Positions 7,075 to 57,612 of a DNA stretch of 57,612 bases are shown here, piece by piece. This DNA comes from an uncultured Oscillospiraceae bacterium (GTDB lineage Bacteria > Bacillota > Clostridia > Oscillospirales > Oscillospiraceae). The notes under the pieces are model-generated. The model was given only the letters and a program-made list of their open reading frames with translations. It was not told the origin of the DNA and ran no database searches. The stretch is from contig CANQCS010000001.1 in the NCBI GenBank assembly GCA_947589745.1, positions 1 to 57,612 of the forward strand, in the 5' to 3' direction. Every line of letters starts with the position of its first letter. The first letter of the stretch is position 1. A program made the translations under genes and the position numbers.

Positions 7075-7753
7075 ATTTTACGAACCTGGGTGCCGTGGGC
7101 GTGGGCCTTGCAGGCCCCAGCCCTTAAGCCGCCCTACGGGCGGCCCACAGGGGCTTCCAGCCCCTCGATGGATGGTAGGGACCTTCGGTCCCTGCCCACC
7201 CTGGGTGACTTTTTGTGCGGACAAAAAGTCACCAAAAAACCGCCAGCCCTACGGGCTGGACCCCCTTTATTCCGTCAGCTGCCATGCTGACAGGAACGTC
7301 TGGAGGGCCTATTTGTTTGCTATTTGTTATTAAACTGCGTCCTGGCGCTCCGTGCTACTACGCGCGGGACAGATTTTCCGTATACGAGCGAATAGAACCA
7401 TCTGTCCCTGGCGGAGTGGAACGGAGCAGAATGCAGTTGGTTAACGTTCCGAAAAGCACCGCGCTCTCAATTGCGTAGTGGAACGGAGCAACCGGCAGTC
7501 GGACTACGGAAAAAAGAGGGCAGCCCCGATGAAAGCTTTCTCTGGGTTCCTGTCATCAGTAATCTCCCCCGAAATAAAGGGGGTCCAGCCCGTAGGGCTG
7601 GCGCGCTTTTTGGTGACTTTTTCCCGCGTGGGAAAAAGTCACCCAGGGTGGGCAGGGACCGAAGGTCCCTACCATCCCCCGAGGGGCTGGAAGCCCCCGG
7701 CACCATCCCCCCCGCCTGGAAAGGCGAATCTTCCGGGAGGCCCGGGAAGGACC
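7075..7753. repeat. Composite hairpin-rich repeat R2, copy 1 (between icd and aconitase)
   Basis: No gene is convincing here. Two arms (about 7090-7270 and 7570-7750) are roughly inverted versions of each other. Each holds a string of small hairpins, for example AGGGACCTTCGGTCCCT, CCAGCCCTACGGGCTGG, and a long one built on GTGACTTTTT / AAAAAGTCAC. The core (about 7335-7520) contains TTGCGTAGTGGAACGGAGCA, a degenerate second copy, and an inverted degenerate copy. The same order of parts recurs at 41830-42430. Confidence 0.7.
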
Positions 7754-10359: not shown

Positions 10360-10363
10360 GTTC

Positions 10364-10524
10364 ATACTTTTTCTTGAAAGAAAAAGTATCAAAAAGAACT
10401 TTATCCTCGCTCTCAAAGCGTTGCGATTCCTACATTTTCCGCACAGTAACGAAGTGCACTTTTCATGAGAGAATAGTATCATACGCGTTTTCAACCTGAT
10501 ACTTTTTCTTTCAAGAAAAAGTAT
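10364..10524 (+). repeat. Dispersed repeat R1, copy B, with hairpins at both ends
   Basis: The left palindrome at 10364-10389 is followed by the shared body, ending in GAATAGTATCATAC at 10471-10484. A second palindrome in the opposite sense lies at 10499-10524 and overlaps the first base of the nitrilase stop codon (10524-10526). Confidence 0.85.
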
Positions 10525-11396
10525 CAGCCGTCCCGCCGGGCGTCCGCCCGGACAAAGGGCGGACACACCTCCGGCGCAATGAGCGCCGCGTACAGGCCGG
10601 GCCGCCGGTAGGCGTTGCCGTGGACCTCCCTGGCGCGGTAGTCCCGGAGAGTATCCATGGGGAATGCCGCCATGTAGAGCCCCTCGGCCTCCCCGGCCTC
10701 CACGATCAGGGTATCCCTGGCCTCCACCTGCCCGGGGCGGATCTCCCCGTAGGCGATCCCGTCAAAGGCGCTGGAGTGGCCGTTGCAGTCCGGCTGGCCG
10801 TAGGGGTAGTTGGCGGTGGCGATGCCCACCATATTTTCAAAGGCCCTGGCCCGGAGCTGGCTCAGCCGGTTCAGCTCCATGGGGCAGGCGTTGGGGACCA
10901 GGATGATCTCCGCCCCCTGGAGCATCAGGATGCGGGCGCTCTCGGGGAACTCCCGGTCATAACAGATCATGGCCCCGATGCGCACCGGCCCGCCCGCCGT
11001 GTCCAGCTGGGCGGTATCAAATCCGTCCCCCGGCGTCAGGACCCGCTCGTCCCCGAAGTCGCAGGTGTGGACCTTGGCGTAGGTCAGAACCTCTCTCCCC
11101 CGCCGGTCGAAGACCGTGACCGTGTTCCGGGGCAGGGGCTCGTACCGCTCCAGGTAGGTCACGGCGACGGCCATGTCCAGCTCTCTCGCCAGCTCCCGGT
11201 AGGCGGTCAGGAACGCGCTGTCCCGCCCGATGGGCGTCTGGGTCAGGTCGTAGCCGCTGCTCCACATCTCCGGGAACAGGGCCAGGTCCGCGCCCAGCGC
11301 CTTCGCCCGGCGGCACCAGAGGACGCCTTTCTCCAGATTCCCCTCCAGGCTGCCCGTGGGCAAAAGCTGCAAAAGCGCCACGCGAAAGCAGTTCAT
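10524..11396 (-). CDS. Carbon-nitrogen hydrolase (nitrilase superfamily)
   Basis: 290 residues spanning a complete nitrilase-superfamily fold. The catalytic Glu-Lys-Cys triad is visible as E43 (LFPEMWSSG), K108 (YAKVH) and C145 (MICYDREFPE). The family hydrolyses amides or nitriles; the substrate here is unknown, and the sequence resembles the N-carbamoyl / omega-amidase branches. The ATG at 11396 overlaps the stop of the upstream esterase gene by 4 bp, so translation is coupled. It is the last gene of the alpha-galactosidase operon, which suggests carbohydrate- or amino-sugar-linked scavenging (inferred). The stop codon abuts repeat R1. Confidence 0.85.
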   Translation of the reverse strand: MNCFRVALLQLLPTGSLEGNLEKGVLWCRRAKALGADLALFPEMWSSGYDLTQTPIGRDSAFLTAYRELARELDMAVAVTYLERYEPLPRNTVTVFDRRGREVLTYAKVHTCDFGDERVLTPGDGFDTAQLDTAGGPVRIGAMICYDREFPESARILMLQGAEIILVPNACPMELNRLSQLRARAFENMVGIATANYPYGQPDCNGHSSAFDGIAYGEIRPGQVEARDTLIVEAGEAEGLYMAAFPMDTLRDYRAREVHGNAYRRPGLYAALIAPEVCPPFVRADARRDG

Positions 11397-41829: not shown

Positions 41830-42430
41830 AACCCGGGGTTACTTTTCCCTTGCAGGAAAAGTAACCAAAAGTGCATTTAAGAAAACCGAGGTTTTCTTAA
41901 AAATCTTTCCTTATTTTTTGTTTATGTTTGCGCTCCCCCTGGGGCTGGTCTTTTCTAAACCGCGCCGGGTCCCGTGTATGGGGCGAAGCGGCTACAGCGA
42001 GTATGTTCCCAAGGGGATTGAAGCGCTGGTGCGGGGACTCATTGGGTGCGTTGGTCGTTTTGTCCGTTGTCTTACTGCGTCCTGCTCCGTTCCACTACGC
42101 AAAGGACAGACTTCCGTATACGATTCGATACGAAACATTCATCAATTGCGTAGTGGAACGGAGCAACCGGCAGTAAGAATACGGAAAAAACAACACAGCA
42201 GTACCGATGAATGCCTTCCCTGGCCCCTAGTCCCAACATCCATCTGCCCTTAACCGTCATCCCGAGGGGATTCTCAAGGGGGCCCCAGCCCCCTTGAGCG
42301 CACTTTTGGGTACTTTTCCTGCGAGGGAAAAGTACCCCAGGGTCAGCAGGGACCGGAGGTCCCTACCAAGCCAGGTAGGGGCCGGAGGCCCCTGCGAAGG
42401 GACCCGGGGGCTGCGCCCCCGCCCCTGTTC
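41830..42430. repeat. Composite hairpin-rich repeat R2, copy 2 (between fchA and fhs)
   Basis: Left hairpin GGTTACTTTTCC / GGAAAAGTAACC, a 24-nt palindrome at 41877-41900 (arms TTAAGAAAACC / GGTTTTCTTAA), and a core with a perfect 20-bp inverted repeat: TGCTCCGTTCCACTACGCAA at 42083-42102 and its complement at 42146-42165. Right arm hairpins include GGGTACTTTTCC and AGGGACCGGAGGTCCCT. The parts and their order match copy 1 at 7075-7753. No gene is convincing. Confidence 0.7.
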
Positions 42431-47815: not shown

Positions 47816-47919
47816 CAGTAGGGGGGGTAGACGACGGGATATCAGAACCACGCGAGGCAAATCACTGTCGATCCTTTTGGTACCCAGGAAATTCAAAATT
47901 TTAGGAGGAATTGCGAGAG

Positions 47920-50900
47920 ATGAAAAGACGACTGGTATCTATACTGCTGGTATTATGTATGCTGCTGTCCCTGCTGCCGGAGACGGCCCTAGCGGCGGAG
48001 GAAAAACCGACCTCAGGACAGTGCGGTGATAATGTGTATTGGAGCTTTGATGAGGGCACAGGCACCCTGACCATCAGTGGGACAGGGGAGATGGAGGATT
48101 GGGATTGGGATTATGGTTCGCCTTGGTACGGCAGAGAAGTAAAGCAAGCAGTGATTAATGACGGCGTCACGTCCATTGGGGATATTGCGTTTATGGATTG
48201 TAGCAACCTGACCAGCGTGGTCATCCCGGACAGCGTCACGTCCATTGGAGTCCAGGCGTTTATGGATTGTAGCAGCCTGACCAGCGTGGTCATCCCGGAC
48301 AGCGTCACTTTTATCGGGTTTGAGGCGTTTATGGATTGTAGCAGCCTGACCAGCGTGGTCATCCCGGACAACGTCACGGCCATCGGGGGGGATGTGTTTT
48401 CTGGTTGCAGCAGCCTGACCAGCGTGGTCATCCCGGACAGCGTCACGTACATCGGGGAGAATGCGTTTTCTGGTTGCAGCAGCCTGACCAGCGTGGTCAT
48501 CCCGGACAGCGTCACGTACATCAGTATGCGTACATTTTCTGGTTGTAGCAGCCTGACTAGTGTGGTCATCCCGGACAGCGTCACTTCCATCTGGTATAAT
48601 GCGTTTGAAGGTTGCAGCAGCTTGACCGATGTCTACTATTCAGGTAGCGAGGAGCAGTGGAATCACATTGACATTCGTTATCGTTATGATGATTATGATG
48701 GTAATAATCCCCTGCACAACGCCACTATCCACTTCAACAGCACCGGACCGGGCGAAGGTGGTATAGGGGACATCGGGGTGTCTCAAGAAAAGTTCGAGGA
48801 AGAGTACATAGAAGAACACAAAAACTACTTTCGGACAGCCTATGCCAGCGATATTGTTCCTATGGCAATGACATCCGGACTGGGATTTCTTCTGGCGGAT
48901 GCCGAAGATGATATGAGCAACAAATTGTATAAAGATCTCTCCATTTCTGTCGCATTTGCCGATACGATAGAAGGATTCTTAAATCCATTTGCTTTCGTCG
49001 ATGTATCGTTAGCAGATGCAAAAAAAATTACGCTCAAAATTCCCGATATTGCTCTTTTGGATTTGGGTAGCAGTGAATACTCAGTTCTCTTATATCAGCT
49101 GATGGCAAGCGATACGGTTTATCAGGGTATTTTGGACAGTTTCTCCATCAGCTACCAAAAAAATTTGCGTAGTTTTGCTAAGTCTATTTCAGACAATGTC
49201 ATCAAGCTATCTAAAAACGCGACAGATCCAGACTTTCTTGAAGCAAAAGCGAAGCTAGTCGAAGCCGCGCGAACAATTCAAAATGCCGACCCAGACAGCG
49301 TAGAATTTTCGGTTGCCTATGAAATATTCGAGAGACTTGGTGATCAATTCCTAGATAGTAATAAAACGAAAAAGTACCTAGAGAATTTGTCGAGTAATGC
49401 CACTGATGCGTTTTCGTTTATGGGCTCTGTCCTGGATGAAATCAATTCTATCGGACGTGCTTATCAATATCTCTGTTGGGCTGAAAGCTATGCGGAAACA
49501 AAAGCAGAATTCAAAACTGTTTTAAAGGGCATCGCCGCGCAAGCAGACGAGCGTGTAAGGTCGATCTCTGTACTTGATAAGTTTGAGTATAGAGATGAAC
49601 TAATGAACCCATACAGTGAGGTAAGTATGTGTCATGGATTGTCGAATGCAATTAATTCTTATCTTAAAACAATGGACCAATATGCCGAAGATGCACATAG
49701 AAGTTTTGTGAATGAAGTCATCAACAAAACCGGAAAATCATGTGTAAAGCTAGTTGGCAGCTTTATTGGTTCTAAAGCAACAAAGGCATTAGGCGGATCG
49801 ATTTGCCCAGAATTAGCGGCACTTAATGCAGCACTAAAATCAGGAAAATTAATAGTTGATCTTTTTACCAATATAGACCAAGAGCAAAAGATGCTACTAT
49901 CTGTAGAATCCTTAGAAATCATTGCGAGAATGCTGAAAGAAGTTTCTGAGGATTATGGGAATGCACTTATATTGCCGCCGGTCGTATCGCCGCTTGGACA
50001 GGTGCCTGAACCCCTTGAGTTTGCAAAGGTGTTTGACGAATCCATAAAAATGTATAAAAACGCCCTATTGCTCGCCTGTGACTACGGCATTGAGTACGAA
50101 AAATCCAAACTAGCATATGCTGCGAAAAAGGCTGGAAGCGTTCCAGATTTCTGGTACGACATGGGGGCAACTACTCCTTGGCAAAAACAGGTGAGTGAAA
50201 GTTCACTTGCAATTAATCTCCTTTCATTTCAAAAAGCGCAGGTCGCTGATATTCATTGTCACGATGATGGGCATCCATATAATAGCTCTGATGGGCAGGT
50301 TGAGTATCGTCAGTCGCTGAAAGTAACAAGCGTAGCGTGCCCTGTGGGTGTCACAGTTATTGCCCCAGATGGTACGCAGCTTGCACATTTGACAAATGAC
50401 TCCGCAGAAATCGCCCCTGGTTATGAATCATATTTCTTTACCGTTCCTCTGGATGAGATGGCATCTGACTATGTGAAAGTAGCAATTATTCCAGAACTAA
50501 GTGATTATCAGATTTTGCTCAATGGTACTGAAGATGGAAAGATGAGCGTCTTTACAGGAAGATATGATGGGGAAAATATCACAGATGTCGAAACTTACGC
50601 CAATTTTCCAATAACTGATAGCACATCTGGGCACCTTACTTCTGGAACAGAAGCAGACCCACTTGGAAGTCTGGTGCTGGATGACCAAGTTTATGGGAAC
50701 GAGGAGAATATAGGATTTGTTGTCACCCTCGACCTTGGCGGCGGCACCTTGACCGGCCCGACCACCCTGACCACCAACGCCTCCGGTACGCTCGACTATC
50801 TCCCCACCCCCACCCGCGACGGCTATACCTTCGATTGCTGGTCCACCGCGCCCGAGGGCTCGCTCGGGTTGGTCGTCGAGCCAAACAACATCATTTTTAC

Positions 50901-51306
50901 AGAGGACACCACCATCTATGCCTGCTGGACCAAAATTTCCAAAGGCACCTATAAAGTCACCCTTGACCCCAGCGGTGGCACACTGACCGGCCAGACCACC
51001 CTGACCACTAACGCCGCCGGTACTCTCTCCTCCCTCCCCACCCCCACCCGGAGCGGCTACACCTTCCTGGGCTGGTACACCGCGCCCGAGGGCGGGACGA
51101 AGATCACCACGAGCACCGTCTTTACCAAGGACACCACCCTGTACGCGCACTATCAGAGCTCCGATTCCTCCTCTTCCTTCCGCTTCGTCTTTGACTTCGA
51201 CCACATGAAGCTCGATAATCTGAGCGGAACGATGACCTTCAGCATCCAGGTCTTTATGAACGGCATATTCCTCCTCGACATTCCTGTCACGCTGCACCTC
51301 AGATAA
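47920..51306 (+). CDS. Secreted BspA-like LRR protein with large central helical region
   Basis: 1128 residues. Signal peptide 1-26 (RRLVSILLVLCMLLSLLPET, then ALAA), a WSFDEGTGTLTISGTGEM lead-in, and seven 23-residue BspA-type leucine-rich repeats (LTSVVIPDSVTxIG). A roughly 640-residue helix-rich region (about 285-930) follows, coded by AT-richer DNA. Then come two InlB/Listeria-Bacteroides B repeats (GYTFDCWSTAPEG, GYTFLGWYTAPEG) and a 40-residue tail ending FMNGIFLLDIPVTLHLR. No LPXTG or SLH anchor. Likely a surface adhesin. The ATG at 47920 follows AGGAGGA by 11 nt; the TTG at 47911 is a less likely start. Confidence 0.85.
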   Translation: MKRRLVSILLVLCMLLSLLPETALAAEEKPTSGQCGDNVYWSFDEGTGTLTISGTGEMEDWDWDYGSPWYGREVKQAVINDGVTSIGDIAFMDCSNLTSVVIPDSVTSIGVQAFMDCSSLTSVVIPDSVTFIGFEAFMDCSSLTSVVIPDNVTAIGGDVFSGCSSLTSVVIPDSVTYIGENAFSGCSSLTSVVIPDSVTYISMRTFSGCSSLTSVVIPDSVTSIWYNAFEGCSSLTDVYYSGSEEQWNHIDIRYRYDDYDGNNPLHNATIHFNSTGPGEGGIGDIGVSQEKFEEEYIEEHKNYFRTAYASDIVPMAMTSGLGFLLADAEDDMSNKLYKDLSISVAFADTIEGFLNPFAFVDVSLADAKKITLKIPDIALLDLGSSEYSVLLYQLMASDTVYQGILDSFSISYQKNLRSFAKSISDNVIKLSKNATDPDFLEAKAKLVEAARTIQNADPDSVEFSVAYEIFERLGDQFLDSNKTKKYLENLSSNATDAFSFMGSVLDEINSIGRAYQYLCWAESYAETKAEFKTVLKGIAAQADERVRSISVLDKFEYRDELMNPYSEVSMCHGLSNAINSYLKTMDQYAEDAHRSFVNEVINKTGKSCVKLVGSFIGSKATKALGGSICPELAALNAALKSGKLIVDLFTNIDQEQKMLLSVESLEIIARMLKEVSEDYGNALILPPVVSPLGQVPEPLEFAKVFDESIKMYKNALLLACDYGIEYEKSKLAYAAKKAGSVPDFWYDMGATTPWQKQVSESSLAINLLSFQKAQVADIHCHDDGHPYNSSDGQVEYRQSLKVTSVACPVGVTVIAPDGTQLAHLTNDSAEIAPGYESYFFTVPLDEMASDYVKVAIIPELSDYQILLNGTEDGKMSVFTGRYDGENITDVETYANFPITDSTSGHLTSGTEADPLGSLVLDDQVYGNEENIGFVVTLDLGGGTLTGPTTLTTNASGTLDYLPTPTRDGYTFDCWSTAPEGSLGLVVEPNNIIFTEDTTIYACWTKISKGTYKVTLDPSGGTLTGQTTLTTNAAGTLSSLPTPTRSGYTFLGWYTAPEGGTKITTSTVFTKDTTLYAHYQSSDSSSSFRFVFDFDHMKLDNLSGTMTFSIQVFMNGIFLLDIPVTLHLR
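48166..48648 (+). repeat. Seven tandem 69-bp LRR-coding units
   Basis: Near-identical DNA units containing AGCGTGGTCATCCCGGACAG, each coding 23 residues of the BspA LRR. The nucleotide identity is high enough for slippage or recombination to change copy number. Confidence 0.85.
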
Positions 51307-54140: not shown

Positions 54141-54172
54141 GGAAAAGTTGCACGGAGACGTGCAACTTTTCC
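54141..54172. repeat. Perfect 14-bp palindromic stem upstream of the recombinase gene
   Basis: GGAAAAGTTGCACG / CGTGCAACTTTTCC around GAGA. The same core (GTTGCACG / CGTGCAAC) recurs at 55191-55220 downstream of the recombinase. It may act as pepD terminator and/or as a protein site. Confidence 0.7.
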
Positions 54173-54219
54173 GCTTTTCGCGGGAAAGTATATAGGACTT
54201 TTTCACGGGAGGCAACACC

Positions 54220-55032
54220 ATGGACCATTTCACCGCCTATCTCCGCAAAAACGACAAGTCCCCCGCCACCATCGAGAAGTACCGGCGGGAGGTCGGACAG
54301 TTCCTCTCCTGGCTGGCAGGCCGGGACATCTCCGAGGAAACCGCCCGGGCCTACCGGGACACCCTGCTCCGAAGCCGCGCCCCCTCCGGCGTCAACGGGG
54401 CCGTGGCCGCGCTGAACCGCTACTTTGATTTTCTGGGCAGGTCGGAGTGTAAACTGAAATCCGTCCGGGTCCAGCGCACCATTTTCCGGGACGAGGCGAG
54501 GGAGCTGAGCCGGGACGAGTACCGCCGCCTGCTGGCCGCGGCGGAGAAAAGGGGCAGTCAGCGCCTTATGCTGGTCATGGAGACCATCTGCGCCACCGGC
54601 ATCCGAGTCAGCGAGCTGCAATTCTTCACCGTGGAGGCGGTGCGCCTGGGGCGGGCCCAGGTGCGGAACAAGGGGAAGAGCCGCACCGTCTTTCTCCCCG
54701 TCAAGCTGCAAAGGCGGCTGCTGAAGTACGCCGGGGCGAAAAAAATCGCCGCCGGGCCCATTTTTGTGACCCGCAGCGGAAGACCCCTGGACCGCTCTAA
54801 CATCTGGCACGACATGAAAGCGCTGTGCAAAGAGGCAGGAGTGGCGGAGACGAAGGTCTTCCCCCACAACCTGCGGCACCTGTTCGCCCGGACGTTCTAC
54901 GGACTGGAGAAGGATATCGTGCGGCTGGCGGATATCCTGGGGCACTCGTCTATCAACACCACCCGGATCTATACCATGGAATCCGGGTATGAGCACCGGC
55001 GGCAGCTGGATAAGATGAAATTGGTGATATAA
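54220..55032 (+). CDS. Tyrosine recombinase, candidate DNA invertase
   Basis: 270 residues. The N-terminal SAM-like core-binding domain (1-90) is followed by the catalytic domain. The active-site set is complete: R in ICATGIRVSEL, K in VRNKGKSRTV, H-x2-R in FPHNLRHLFAR, H in LGHSS and Y in TTRIYTME. The compact size and lack of an arm-binding domain fit Xer-like invertases that flip nearby promoters. The ATG at 54220 has GGAGG 8 nt upstream. Two inverted 24-bp sites begin 7 bp after its stop codon, ahead of the LRR gene it probably controls. Confidence 0.9.
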   Translation: MDHFTAYLRKNDKSPATIEKYRREVGQFLSWLAGRDISEETARAYRDTLLRSRAPSGVNGAVAALNRYFDFLGRSECKLKSVRVQRTIFRDEARELSRDEYRRLLAAAEKRGSQRLMLVMETICATGIRVSELQFFTVEAVRLGRAQVRNKGKSRTVFLPVKLQRRLLKYAGAKKIAAGPIFVTRSGRPLDRSNIWHDMKALCKEAGVAETKVFPHNLRHLFARTFYGLEKDIVRLADILGHSSINTTRIYTMESGYEHRRQLDKMKLVI

Positions 55033-55039
55033 AAAGAAA

Positions 55040-55063
55040 ACCACGGAATTGTTGTTCCGTGGT
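55040..55063 (+). repeat. Left recombination site of the invertible segment
   Basis: Arms ACCACGGAA and TTCCGTGGT around the asymmetric 6-bp spacer TTGTTG, the arm-spacer-arm form of a tyrosine-recombinase core site. Its partner at 55262-55285 is in the opposite orientation. Confidence 0.75.
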
Positions 55064-55096
55064 ATAGAGCTGATTTCCCCAGCTACTACATAGCAT

Positions 55097-55125
55097 ATCT
55101 TATCATGCGATTTTGCCAAATGCAA
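55097..55125 (-). promoter_or_regulatory. Promoter-like sequence inside the invertible segment
   Basis: Minus strand TTGCAT (55125-55120) and extended -10 TGATAAGAT, with TAAGAT at 55102-55097, spacing 17. An overlapping alternative is TTGGCA (55119-55114) with TATGCT (55097-55092), spacing 16. Both point toward the recombinase, away from the LRR gene. Confidence 0.45.
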
Positions 55126-55190
55126 GGATATTTTTTCCTTTTGGGCATGACAGACAGACCGGCTCTCAGAAAATTTTTGAAACCGGCCCG

Positions 55191-55220
55191 AAAAGGTTGC
55201 ACGAAAACGTGCAACCTTTT
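55191..55220. repeat. 13-bp palindromic stem inside the invertible segment
   Basis: AAAAGGTTGCACG / CGTGCAACCTTTT around AAAA. It shares its core with the stem at 54141-54172. In this orientation it stands between the recombinase and the LRR gene and could block read-through. Confidence 0.7.
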
Positions 55221-55261
55221 ATCAAAAAATAAAAGACGGTCAGACGTCTTACCGTTCCTCC

Positions 55262-55285
55262 ACCACGGAACAACAATTCTGTGGT
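55262..55285 (-). repeat. Right recombination site of the invertible segment
   Basis: On the plus strand the arms are ACCACGGAA and TTCTGTGGT around CAACAA. Read on the minus strand it equals the left site at 23 of 24 positions, with the same TTGTTG spacer. Confidence 0.75.
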
Positions 55286-55318
55286 AAATACGAATGATGT
55301 AAGGAGGACCATCAAGAC

Positions 55319-57229
55319 ATGAAGAAACGAGCGTTATCCATCTTGCTGGCGCTTTGTATAGCGCTGGCCCTGGTACCGGGCACAGCCCTGGCGGTATCAA
55401 GCGAAGTGCCATATCCTGTCACCGGCGGAAACATCTATTTCGACAAGGCTACGGGAAAAATCACGAACTGCGACTGGGAAGTGACAGCAGCGGTGATTCC
55501 GTCGAAAATCGAAGGGGTCCCTGTCACGTCCATCGGGGATAATGTGTTTTGGGGTTATAAGAATCTGACCAGTGTAGTCATTCCCGAGGGCGTCACCTCT
55601 ATCGGGGATGATGCGTTTGAGTATTGCACCAACCTCACCAGCGTCGTCATCCCCGATAGTGTCACGGATATCGGGGAGTATGCGTTTTTCGGCTGCACCA
55701 GCTTGACTAGTGTGGTCATCCCTGATGGCGTCACGGAAATCAAAAGTTGTGTGTTTTCCGGCTGTAGCGGACTTACCAGTGTAGTCATTCCGGAGAGCGT
55801 CACATACATTGCGGGTGAGGCGTTTTCTGGTTGCAGCGGTCTGACTAACGTGGTCATCCCTGACAGCATCACAGAGATTGTATATGGTGTGTTTTCCGGC
55901 TGCAGCGGTCTAACTAGCGTGGTCATCCCCGACAGTGTCACATACATCAGTGGTGATGCGTTTTATGGTTGCAGTGGGCTGACCAGCATAGTCATTCCAG
56001 ATAGAGTCACATGCATCGACTTTAATGCGTTTTCCAACTGCACTAGCTTGACTAGTGTGGTCATCCCCGACAGTGTCACGGACATTGAGAGTGGGGCGTT
56101 TTCTGGCTGCACCAGCCTCACCAGCGTGGTCATCCCCGACAGTGTCACAGAGATTTGGGGTGGGGTGTTTTCTGGTTGCACCAGTCTGACTAGTGTGGTC
56201 ATCCAGAATGACGACATATATATTAGTGGTAATATGTTTGAGGGGTGCACCGGTTTGACCAGTATTCCAGACAGCATCACAAGAATCAGGAGCGGTATGT
56301 TTATTGGCTGTACCGGTCTCACCAGCATCCCGGAGAGATTTACTTCCATCTCGGATAGGGCGTTTTCTGGCTGCACCGGCCTCACCAGCATCCCGAACAG
56401 CGTCACAGATATTGAGGATAGCGCGTTTTCCGGTTGCACTGGCCTCACCAGCATTCCGAACAGTGTCACGTACATCGGGAACGGCGCGTTTTCCGGCTGC
56501 ACCGGTCTGACCGACGTGGTCATTCCGGAGAGCGTCTGGTTCATTGGGGATGAGGCGTTTGCTGACTGCACAGGCCTGATCAGCGCGGCCATCAAGGCAG
56601 ACGTCACGCTCATCGAGAACTCCACGTTTTCCGGCTGCACCAACCTGACCAGCGTGTCTATCCCCGCCAGCGTGACGACCATCAGGAGCAGGGCGTTTTA
56701 TGGCTGCGAGAGCCTGGAGAAGGTATACTATCCCGGTACACAAGCGCAATGGAACGCCGTTTCGATCAGCACCAACAACGAGCCGCTGAAGAACGCCGAG
56801 GTGATCTTCAACAGCACCGGGCCGGACACCCCCACGCCGCCCGCTGTCTGCACCGTCACCTTTACCGACCAGCAGACCGGCGGTGTGATTGCCGCCCGCA
56901 CGGTCCAGGAGGGCGGCACCGTCGGCAGTCTTCCCGCCGCCCCCGCCCACGACGGCTACACCTTCCAGGGCTGGTACGACGCCAGCGGCAAGGCGGTCAC
57001 CGCCTCCACCAAGGTCACCGGTGACATGACGGTCTACGCCCGCTACGAGAAGGCGTCCACCGAACCCTCCGGTCCTTCCGGCCCCACCGAGCCCTCCGGC
57101 CCGGCCTTTACTTTCGAGTTTGAGTTTGGCGGCCTGGACCCCCAGACCGGCACCCTCAGCATGAGCATCGTGGTCTACATGAACGGCATTGAGCTGCTCA
57201 CCATCCCCCTGACCCTCAACCTCGGCTGA
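55319..57229 (+). CDS. Secreted BspA-like LRR protein, probably phase-variable
   Basis: 636 residues. Signal peptide 1-25 (KKRALSILLALCIALALVPG, then TALA) is followed by 18 BspA-type leucine-rich repeats (about 69-475), four of which are 21 instead of 23 residues. One InlB-type B repeat follows (GYTFQGWYDASG), then a Pro/Ser/Gly linker (EPSGPSGPTEPSGP) and a 40-residue tail (YMNGIELLTIPLTLNLG) shared with the other LRR protein. No LPXTG motif. The ATG at 55319 has AAGGAGGA 11 nt upstream, but only 33 bp separate it from the right recombination site, so its promoter must lie in or beyond the invertible segment. Likely an adhesin. Confidence 0.88.
   Translation: MKKRALSILLALCIALALVPGTALAVSSEVPYPVTGGNIYFDKATGKITNCDWEVTAAVIPSKIEGVPVTSIGDNVFWGYKNLTSVVIPEGVTSIGDDAFEYCTNLTSVVIPDSVTDIGEYAFFGCTSLTSVVIPDGVTEIKSCVFSGCSGLTSVVIPESVTYIAGEAFSGCSGLTNVVIPDSITEIVYGVFSGCSGLTSVVIPDSVTYISGDAFYGCSGLTSIVIPDRVTCIDFNAFSNCTSLTSVVIPDSVTDIESGAFSGCTSLTSVVIPDSVTEIWGGVFSGCTSLTSVVIQNDDIYISGNMFEGCTGLTSIPDSITRIRSGMFIGCTGLTSIPERFTSISDRAFSGCTGLTSIPNSVTDIEDSAFSGCTGLTSIPNSVTYIGNGAFSGCTGLTDVVIPESVWFIGDEAFADCTGLISAAIKADVTLIENSTFSGCTNLTSVSIPASVTTIRSRAFYGCESLEKVYYPGTQAQWNAVSISTNNEPLKNAEVIFNSTGPDTPTPPAVCTVTFTDQQTGGVIAARTVQEGGTVGSLPAAPAHDGYTFQGWYDASGKAVTASTKVTGDMTVYARYEKASTEPSGPSGPTEPSGPAFTFEFEFGGLDPQTGTLSMSIVVYMNGIELLTIPLTLNLG
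55523..56741 (+). repeat. Eighteen tandem LRR-coding units (69 or 63 bp)
   Basis: Units code x-(V/I)T-x-I-x4-F-x-GC-x-x-LTS(VV)IP. Units 11-14 lack the two residues before IP and are 21 residues long. DNA identity between units is high (for example TTTTCTGGCTGCACC). Confidence 0.85.
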
Positions 57230-57243
57230 GCGGGGGACGGAAC

Positions 57244-57278
57244 GGAGGCCCTGTATCCCGCCGGGATACAGGGCCTCC
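57244..57278. terminator. Bidirectional terminator after the second LRR gene
   Basis: A perfect 16-bp stem GGAGGCCCTGTATCCC / GGGATACAGGGCCTCC with a 3-nt loop, between the LRR gene and a convergent integrase gene. Confidence 0.85.
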
Positions 57279-57281
57279 CCA

Positions 57282-57612
57282 TTATTCCTCGCCGCTGTCG
57301 ATGGCGCGGCCCACCTCCTGGACCACGTTCAGGTTGGTCTCATCAAAGAGGTGCATATAGATCTGCGTGGTGGTGTTGGTGCTGCTGTGGCCCAGGGCCT
57401 TGCTGATGCTGAACAGCGGCACGTTGCGGCTGTGGGCGATGCTGGTGAAGCTGTGGCGCAGGCCGTGGAGGGTCACATAGGGCAGCTCCGTCTGCCGCAG
57501 CAGGTACTGGAGGCGGTTGCTGAGATAGTCCGGCTGGTAGGGGTGGCCGTCGGTGCGGCAGATGACAAAGCCCTGGTCCTGGTAGTTGGCGCCCCACCGG
57601 GCCATGTCCCGC
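57282..57612 (-). CDS. Tyrosine recombinase/integrase, C-terminal part only
   Basis: About 110 residues are visible; the gene continues past the right edge. The catalytic C-terminal half is clear: H-x2-R in LHGLRHSFTSIA, GHSSTNTTTQIY with the active-site tyrosine, and a preceding CRTDGHPYQPDYLS as in phage/ICE integrases of Firmicutes. It differs from the recombinase at 54220 and is closer to the mobile-element type. An ATG at 57605 is in frame but internal to the family alignment, so it is not the true start. It may mark the end of an integrated element. Confidence 0.85.
   Translation of the reverse strand, partial: RDMARWGANYQDQGFVICRTDGHPYQPDYLSNRLQYLLRQTELPYVTLHGLRHSFTSIAHSRNVPLFSISKALGHSSTNTTTQIYMHLFDETNLNVVQEVGRAIDSGEE

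Follow-up and report, generated by a model that had tools for sequence, protein, structure and literature searches.

In the 57,612-nt window analysed here, which is the whole stretch of the uncultured Oscillospiraceae bacterium's contig named above, a tyrosine recombinase gene, two inverted recombination sites and a gene for a secreted leucine-rich repeat (LRR) protein adjoin one another, and together they very probably form a self-contained ON/OFF promoter-inversion switch that was sequenced in its OFF state. With a 198-base piece of DNA flipping between its two orientations, only a part of the cells would probably make the LRR protein. All parts of such a switch are present and conserved, and both orientations occur among related loci and in a paralogue. 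The assignment to a known kind of element, namely the promoter-inversion switch (inverton) with an adjacent tyrosine recombinase, is well supported by the intact recombinase gene next to the segment, the inverted sites with their asymmetric spacer, the promoter predicted inside the segment and the two orientations seen among relatives. At this locus, a secreted BspA-type LRR protein would be under a clean, testable switch equipped with a recombinase of its own.

The recombinase gene (54220-55032, plus strand) is an intact open reading frame of 270 aa, and its product matches PF00589 (Phage_integrase, E = 6.8e-24) as well as PF02899, which by Pfam makes it a recombinase of the tyrosine type and not a serine invertase of the Hin/Gin type. 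When aligned to XerD (PDB 1a0p), the protein keeps R129, H216-x-x-R219, H242 and Y251, and we take R129, H216, R219, H242 and Y251 to be its catalytic residues. It is likely the dedicated invertase of the adjoining segment. The left recombination site (ACCACGGAA-TTGTTG-TTCCGTGGT, 24 nt, 55040-55063, plus strand) begins 7 bp past the end of the recombinase gene, and the right site (24 nt, 55262-55285, minus strand) is an inverted copy of it with one arm mismatch. The two sites match at 23 of 24 positions (96% complementary), their TTGTTG spacers are identical once one site is reversed, and they enclose the 198 bp of the invertible segment (55064-55261). The LRR gene, which is the predicted switched gene (55319-57229, plus strand), starts 33 bp beyond the right site, has the ribosome-binding site (RBS) AAGGAGG and encodes a BspA-type protein of 636 aa that matches PF13306 (BspA-type LRR_5, E = 5.1e-115) and PF09479 (Listeria-Bacteroides repeat, E = 4.5e-13). 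Its N-terminus, judged by eye, has the look of a signal peptide, and the protein may act at the surface or in adhesion. An earlier note, made from the letters of this stretch, had described the complete recombinase gene, the two inverted sites with their shared spacer and 198 enclosed bp, and the distance of 33 bp to the LRR gene, all of which were borne out by the reading frames, the Pfam domains and the coordinates. Inverted repeats of 24 nt with at most one mismatch within 1 kb were absent from each of five dinucleotide shuffles of the whole window, whereas in the real window the same search returned the site pair and three other places, the one of these that was searched being a dispersed repeat.

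Inside the segment, a leftward promoter is predicted at 55097-55125 (minus strand), with the -35 element TTGCAT at 55125-55120, a spacing of 17 nt, and the -10 element TAAGAT with an extended TG at 55102-55097. The earlier note had called this the best promoter-like sequence of the segment. The sequence is present as described and the TTGCAT type is the form that recurs across the recombinase family, but its rank as the best did not hold throughout, since a simple promoter scan of the region leaves it unlisted and gives an overlapping leftward TTGGCA-16-TATGCT instead (9/12). As the locus is drawn, the LRR gene would be OFF because the 33 bp between the right site and the start codon are too short for a promoter of its own. 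We propose that the arms ACCACGGAA/TTCCGTGGT of both sites are where the recombinase binds, and that strand exchange across the 6-bp spacer would then invert the 198-bp segment. In the sequenced orientation, the promoter would fire leftward and away from the LRR gene (OFF); after inversion, it would point rightward and the LRR gene would be transcribed from about 84 nt upstream (ON). This predicted 5' untranslated region was recomputed with the transcript start taken 6 nt past the -10 element, and it agrees with the distance of about 85 nt given before.

The recombinase was searched in 149 genomes including the window's own, of which 139 had a match at an E-value of up to 0.001, many of these matches being weak and possibly ordinary Xer-type proteins. 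The 65 loci that were compared comprise 60 high-scoring places from these genomes, three recombinase relatives from a genome-contig collection that was scanned via six short peptide patterns, a second cassette on contig C4 of the same genome, and the window. The 60 places represent the top of the recombinase match list, with everything below the last one taken left out, together with six places of better E-value (G130:C39 and G123:C33, both at contig ends, two of G011, and one each of G073 and G050). Counts were made on the 61 loci with at least 600 bp downstream, the four excluded loci having 74-248 bp. For a site pair to count, the inverted repeat had to be 13 nt or longer and to start at most 135 bp from the recombinase end, with its copies 150-650 bp apart. 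By this definition, inverted sites stand right after the recombinase in 54 of the 61 family loci, while in 20 dinucleotide shuffles this was so for 4.2 of 61 on average and for 9 at most; pairs scoring at least 16 numbered 46 in the real sequences and 0 in the shuffled ones. Seven of the 61 loci had no site pair by the same definition (L069, L070, L075, L084, L095, L096 and L098), and L095 and L096 had also been dropped by name in the first promoter typing. Four loci from plasmid records were kept outside these counts (Pusillibacter faecalis pMM59_01, Monoglobus pectinilyticus, and two of Subdoligranulum variabile). All four have repeats after the recombinase; two carry the promoter pattern described below, both in the OFF orientation, and the other two are without it. 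At the P. faecalis locus the next annotated gene encodes an S-layer homology protein. A fifth extra locus, from an unverified phage record and likewise uncounted, has no repeat pair, and a scan of viral contigs with the recombinase returned no relative.

The 54 modules with sites form a comparative set whose sites are readable from sequence alone, and promoter orientation can be assigned in 36 of them. The pattern used, TTG-N3-N13-15-TG-N-TA-N3-T with its extended -10 element, was found in these 36 segments; in 200 shuffles it turned up in 1.9 of 54 on average and never in more than 6. All 36 promoters end 23-66 bp from the site that they face (200 shuffles at 15-70 bp: mean 0.6, maximum 3), and in none of the 36 does the pattern occur on both strands of one segment. 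The earlier note had proposed a comparison of orientation among related genomes as a check, and both orientations do occur: of the 36 typed loci, 26 have the promoter directed at the recombinase (OFF) and 10 have it directed at the target (ON; binomial p = 0.011, with related loci treated as independent). The ON/OFF label changes at least six times on the recombinase tree. Homologous segments that are inverted relative to each other were found for L053 and L009 (70% over 111 nt), for L065 and L103, whose recombinases are sisters within one genome (79% over 162 nt), and for L057 and L103 (80% over 172 nt); the window's own segment is inverted relative to that of the related locus L053. Since L065 and L103 are without the promoter pattern, the inversion there is one of the segment and not of a typed promoter, and L057 lacks the pattern as well. 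At the eight loci whose sites are of the ACCACGG type, as in the window, the two copies always carry one and the same 6-bp spacer (8 of 8), whereas spacers differ between these loci by a mean of 2.3 of 6 positions and are identical in 2 of 56 ordered comparisons. Such identity within a locus would be expected if strand exchange, ongoing or recent, needs identical spacers.

Other copies in the same genome add to this picture. The second full cassette, on contig C4, has the same site arms, a site pair 196 bp apart (by pattern search) and an adjoining LRR gene. Its recombinase is 96% identical to that of the window, its spacer differs at one base, the right-site arm mismatch is common to both, and its orientation is OFF as well. 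On contig C58 (L010, around 7211-7304), a third LRR gene stands beside the window's promoter block (91% over 70 nt), which here is inverted compared to the window and faces the LRR gene (ON, TTGCAA-N17-TAGGAT); the order is promoter, a site with two mismatches, RBS and ATG. No family recombinase on C58 was among the 7 recombinase matches found in the genome, and this LRR locus is likely a remnant fixed ON. It is also the most direct sign that the promoter would serve the LRR gene after flipping. Two more family cassettes in this genome have other site types and are OFF on C143 (L059) and ON on C147 (L074). The earlier reading of the locus as a phase-variation switch is thus supported by both orientations among relatives, by the within-locus spacer identity and by the flipped block on C58.

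Several points weigh against this reading or against the numbers behind it. A cruder scorer, which was used first, gave 30 OFF, 15 ON and 9 untyped loci, with C4 being ON via a weak match; the strict pattern was picked after this cruder result, and the shuffle values carry no correction for that choice. The extended -10 pattern is absent from 18 of the 54 family segments, including L065, L103 and also L050 (recombinase 78% identical), in which the direction is ambiguous. Some of the minus-strand matching between segments is due to the palindromic hairpin itself (29 nt for L009 against the window), and the site pairs were found as inverted repeats with at most 17% mismatch, which favours matching spacers. 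In the search of the same genome with the window's segment, the flipped state at this locus was found on no contig, the good matches being C1 (the window), C4 and C58 only, next to two short matches with E-values of 0.145 and 3.29. Finally, C1 and C4, the two cassettes with this site type in the genome, share one orientation, and the right site has the one arm mismatch that it shares with C4. These last two features would be in line with a switch locked OFF, in which recombinase and sites can still be made out although inversion has ceased at this locus, and C58 shows that such loci can decay. However, the recombinase frame is intact and the XerD-aligned residues are kept, the spacer is still identical in both sites, and C4 has the same mismatch together with its 96% identical recombinase, so that we consider a locked switch unlikely.

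Two features of this switch are less ordinary, namely that the recombinase-side site with its U-tract resembles a one-way terminator, and that a palindrome repeated in the genome precedes the recombinase gene. An A-rich run just outside the left site (55030-55039) would appear as a U-tract in leftward transcripts (minus strand) and is terminator-like in combination with the left-site hairpin (-13.1 kcal/mol). A simple terminator scan lists the left site with the A-run as a leftward terminator, in a region where terminator-like sites are not enriched (3 versus a shuffle mean of 1.8, sd 1.5). At every one of the eight loci with this type of site, 6-7 of 8 positions in the left-site U-tract are T, against at most 4 at the right flank. 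Elsewhere in the family, a left-side U-tract is present in 4 of 46 loci and the feature is thus not family-wide. We infer that the left site also works as a one-way terminator, shielding the recombinase gene while the switch is OFF: a leftward transcript would run into hairpin and U-tract and end there, before it could read antisense through the recombinase gene, and ON transcripts would pass the right-site hairpin because the LRR side has no U-tract. Alternatively, the A-run may have been inherited as an A-rich stretch and have no function. This arrangement bears on the idea that the flip mainly feeds back on the recombinase, OFF-state antisense RNA over its gene stabilising OFF and control of the LRR gene being only a part of the effect. 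Such feedback would agree with a promoter aimed at the 3' end of the recombinase gene, as seen for 26 of the 36 typed loci (p = 0.011, related loci as independent), but at each of the 8 loci with this site type a hairpin and U-tract sit where they would halt the antisense RNA, and we regard the feedback as quite improbable. The view that the sites are mere hairpins (terminator or operator) and that the recombinase belongs to a mobile element integrating elsewhere could draw on the terminator-scan hit at the left site and on the partial tyrosine integrase gene at the window's right edge, but is barely credible given the sites after the recombinase in 54 of 61 loci, the matching spacers within loci and the two promoter orientations, the neighbouring frames having been surveyed only roughly and no search for attachment sites having been made.

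Within the proposed promoter-inversion switch, the segment also holds a 13-bp hairpin (55191-55220) that is a possible terminator or operator, with folding energies of -19.5 and -19.7 kcal/mol on its two strands; the earlier note does not mention it. The hairpin may also block read-through from the recombinase gene. It contains a palindrome, GTTGCACG-N4-CGTGCAAC (55196-55215), of which a further copy lies upstream of the recombinase gene (54147-54166), followed by a TATATA -10-like element at 54189-54194. The segment palindrome is kept with 0-4 mismatches in 6 of the 8 segments of this site type. With at most two mismatches, it occurs at 18 places in this genome versus 2 for a reversed control pattern, and the corresponding counts in relatives are 15 versus 1 (G009), 9 versus 1 (G019), 5 versus 2 (G018) and 1 versus 1 (G001). 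The dispersed copies in this genome (L141-L165) are on contigs C2, C70, C71, C80, C101, C112, C123, C136, C137, C158, C163 and C192. A reading of the hairpin as a private terminator was dropped because its palindrome proved to be dispersed genome-wide and the hairpin is missing from the terminator-scan output, so that it may be either a terminator or an operator. A TATATA-like element follows in 13 of 14 palindrome copies outside the two cassettes, as judged with a loose expression and without a shuffle control. Six of these 13 copies precede small proteins of an MQRTSNYQLP-like family, which start MQ(R/H)T-NYQLP-like. When five of these proteins were compared to PHROG, three had no match and two matched weakly, one of them to tail-fibre families (best E = 3.4e-05). 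Another copy precedes a protein with a match to a phage family of unknown function (E = 4.6e-17) and a weak one to replication initiation. It is possible that the palindrome is the operator of a regulon with a shared regulator. Against this idea stand the counts in G001 (1 versus 1) and G018 (5 versus 2). In addition, the palindrome upstream of the recombinase is near-intact at 4 of the 8 loci with this site type and at 1 of the 46 others, and of 7 G009 loci that were retrieved, no more than 2 have the TATATA-like element.

The genes behind the family's switches are varied. The target scan covered 47 of the 54 proteins, cut at 700 aa, with seven omitted for want of a clear frame and the starts of L051 and L107 picked by hand. 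Among the matches listed for these 47 proteins, which cover 25 of 41 families, are the DUF4379 treble-clef (9), BspA-type LRR (6), AP2 (5) and integrase N-terminal (4) domains, and single cases include SLH, a chemotaxis receptor, an ABC-2 transporter, a nucleotide-sugar epimerase and others. The targets of L055 (AP2-like group) and L104 (DUF4379-like) match phage HNH endonuclease families. The target domains are so varied that the switch family is not restricted to surface proteins, and a single recombinase family may act in this bacterial order as a general switch whose targets reach well beyond them. By sequence, the target resembles a second tyrosine recombinase at L058, L074, L100 and L107, with L058 confirmed, which suggests nested switches. 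Loci without the promoter pattern include L054, L055, L057, L061, L062, L064-L067, L071, L078, L087 and L103, and where the frame is clear their targets are mostly AP2/HNH-like; another promoter type may be flipped there. Matches to PADLOC among the targets were scattered over 17 families, none of them found in more than 2 of the 47 members, and were not built on, and the Pfam names PIR1-like and Di19 were taken as zinc-finger cross-matches. As a tentative extension, about which we are rather doubtful, the cassette might be viewed as a portable, self-insulated switch. Its crossover site would be a one-way terminator with the U-tract on the recombinase side only, and the palindrome common to the recombinase promoter region, the segment and other genes (a few of them phage-like) would tie flipping to a regulator of those genes. 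The wider module would have been placed before targets as different as LRR, SLH, treble-clef zinc-finger, AP2/HNH-like and second-recombinase targets.

FimB and FimE, the recombinases of the fim switch of Escherichia coli, are of the tyrosine type. The gene recV of Clostridioides difficile is presumably not beside cwpV; the window's recombinase gene adjoins its segment. The closest published parallel comes from the hCom2 community, in which Clostridia inverton group 139 was linked to tyrosine-type invertase group 35, and it is likened to our locus by the main-text description and not by repeat motif or members (PMC11892184). Both concern repeat-flanked segments, 32 of 33 from Clostridia in that group, with a tyrosine-type recombinase near nearly all of them and with both orientations, which in that study were scored from reads; the words 'leucine' and 'LRR' are absent from the main text of that paper (PMC11892184). 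The CwpV/RecV system resembles our locus in its XerC/D-type tyrosine recombinase, its 21-bp inverted repeats 195 bp apart, its position before a cell-wall protein gene, and a hairpin with poly-U at a repeat (PMC2784873). It differs in that the cwpV promoter is upstream of the segment and OFF was proposed to arise by termination, whereas the recurring promoter of the window's family lies inside the segment; RecV itself was identified by testing seven recombinase genes of the C. difficile genome (PMC2784873). The fim switch shares with our locus a promoter within the inverted segment and dedicated recombinases, but differs in host, sites and target, and in having two recombinases (PMC2784873). 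In a genome-wide inversion survey, 14 of 15 signature-positive Firmicutes samples were Clostridia, but the neighbouring genes in Clostridia were mainly for signalling and chemotaxis, and 'leucine' is absent from its main text (PMC5903667). The literature search, with preprints and most subscription journals outside its coverage, returned no paper on this locus. Queries on invertons with leucine-rich repeats brought up only Streptococcus pneumoniae work, and those on DNA inversion, BspA and phase variation only Mycoplasma agalactiae work.

Several other features of the window lie near the switch or resemble its parts. A second BspA-type LRR protein of 1131 aa is encoded at 47911-51306, about 3 kb upstream of the recombinase gene; beside it there is no 24-nt inverted pair with at most one mismatch, shorter sites not having been sought. 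After the LRR gene, a perfect 17-bp hairpin (57244-57278, plus strand) is a possible terminator, and the C-terminal part of a phage-type tyrosine integrase (57282-57612, minus strand) adjoins the LRR gene at the window edge. Long imperfect inverted repeats are located at 7165-7680, 10362-10526 and 41835-42340, and the first of these has 52 matches in the genome and looks like a dispersed element of the kind of a miniature inverted-repeat transposable element rather than a switch.

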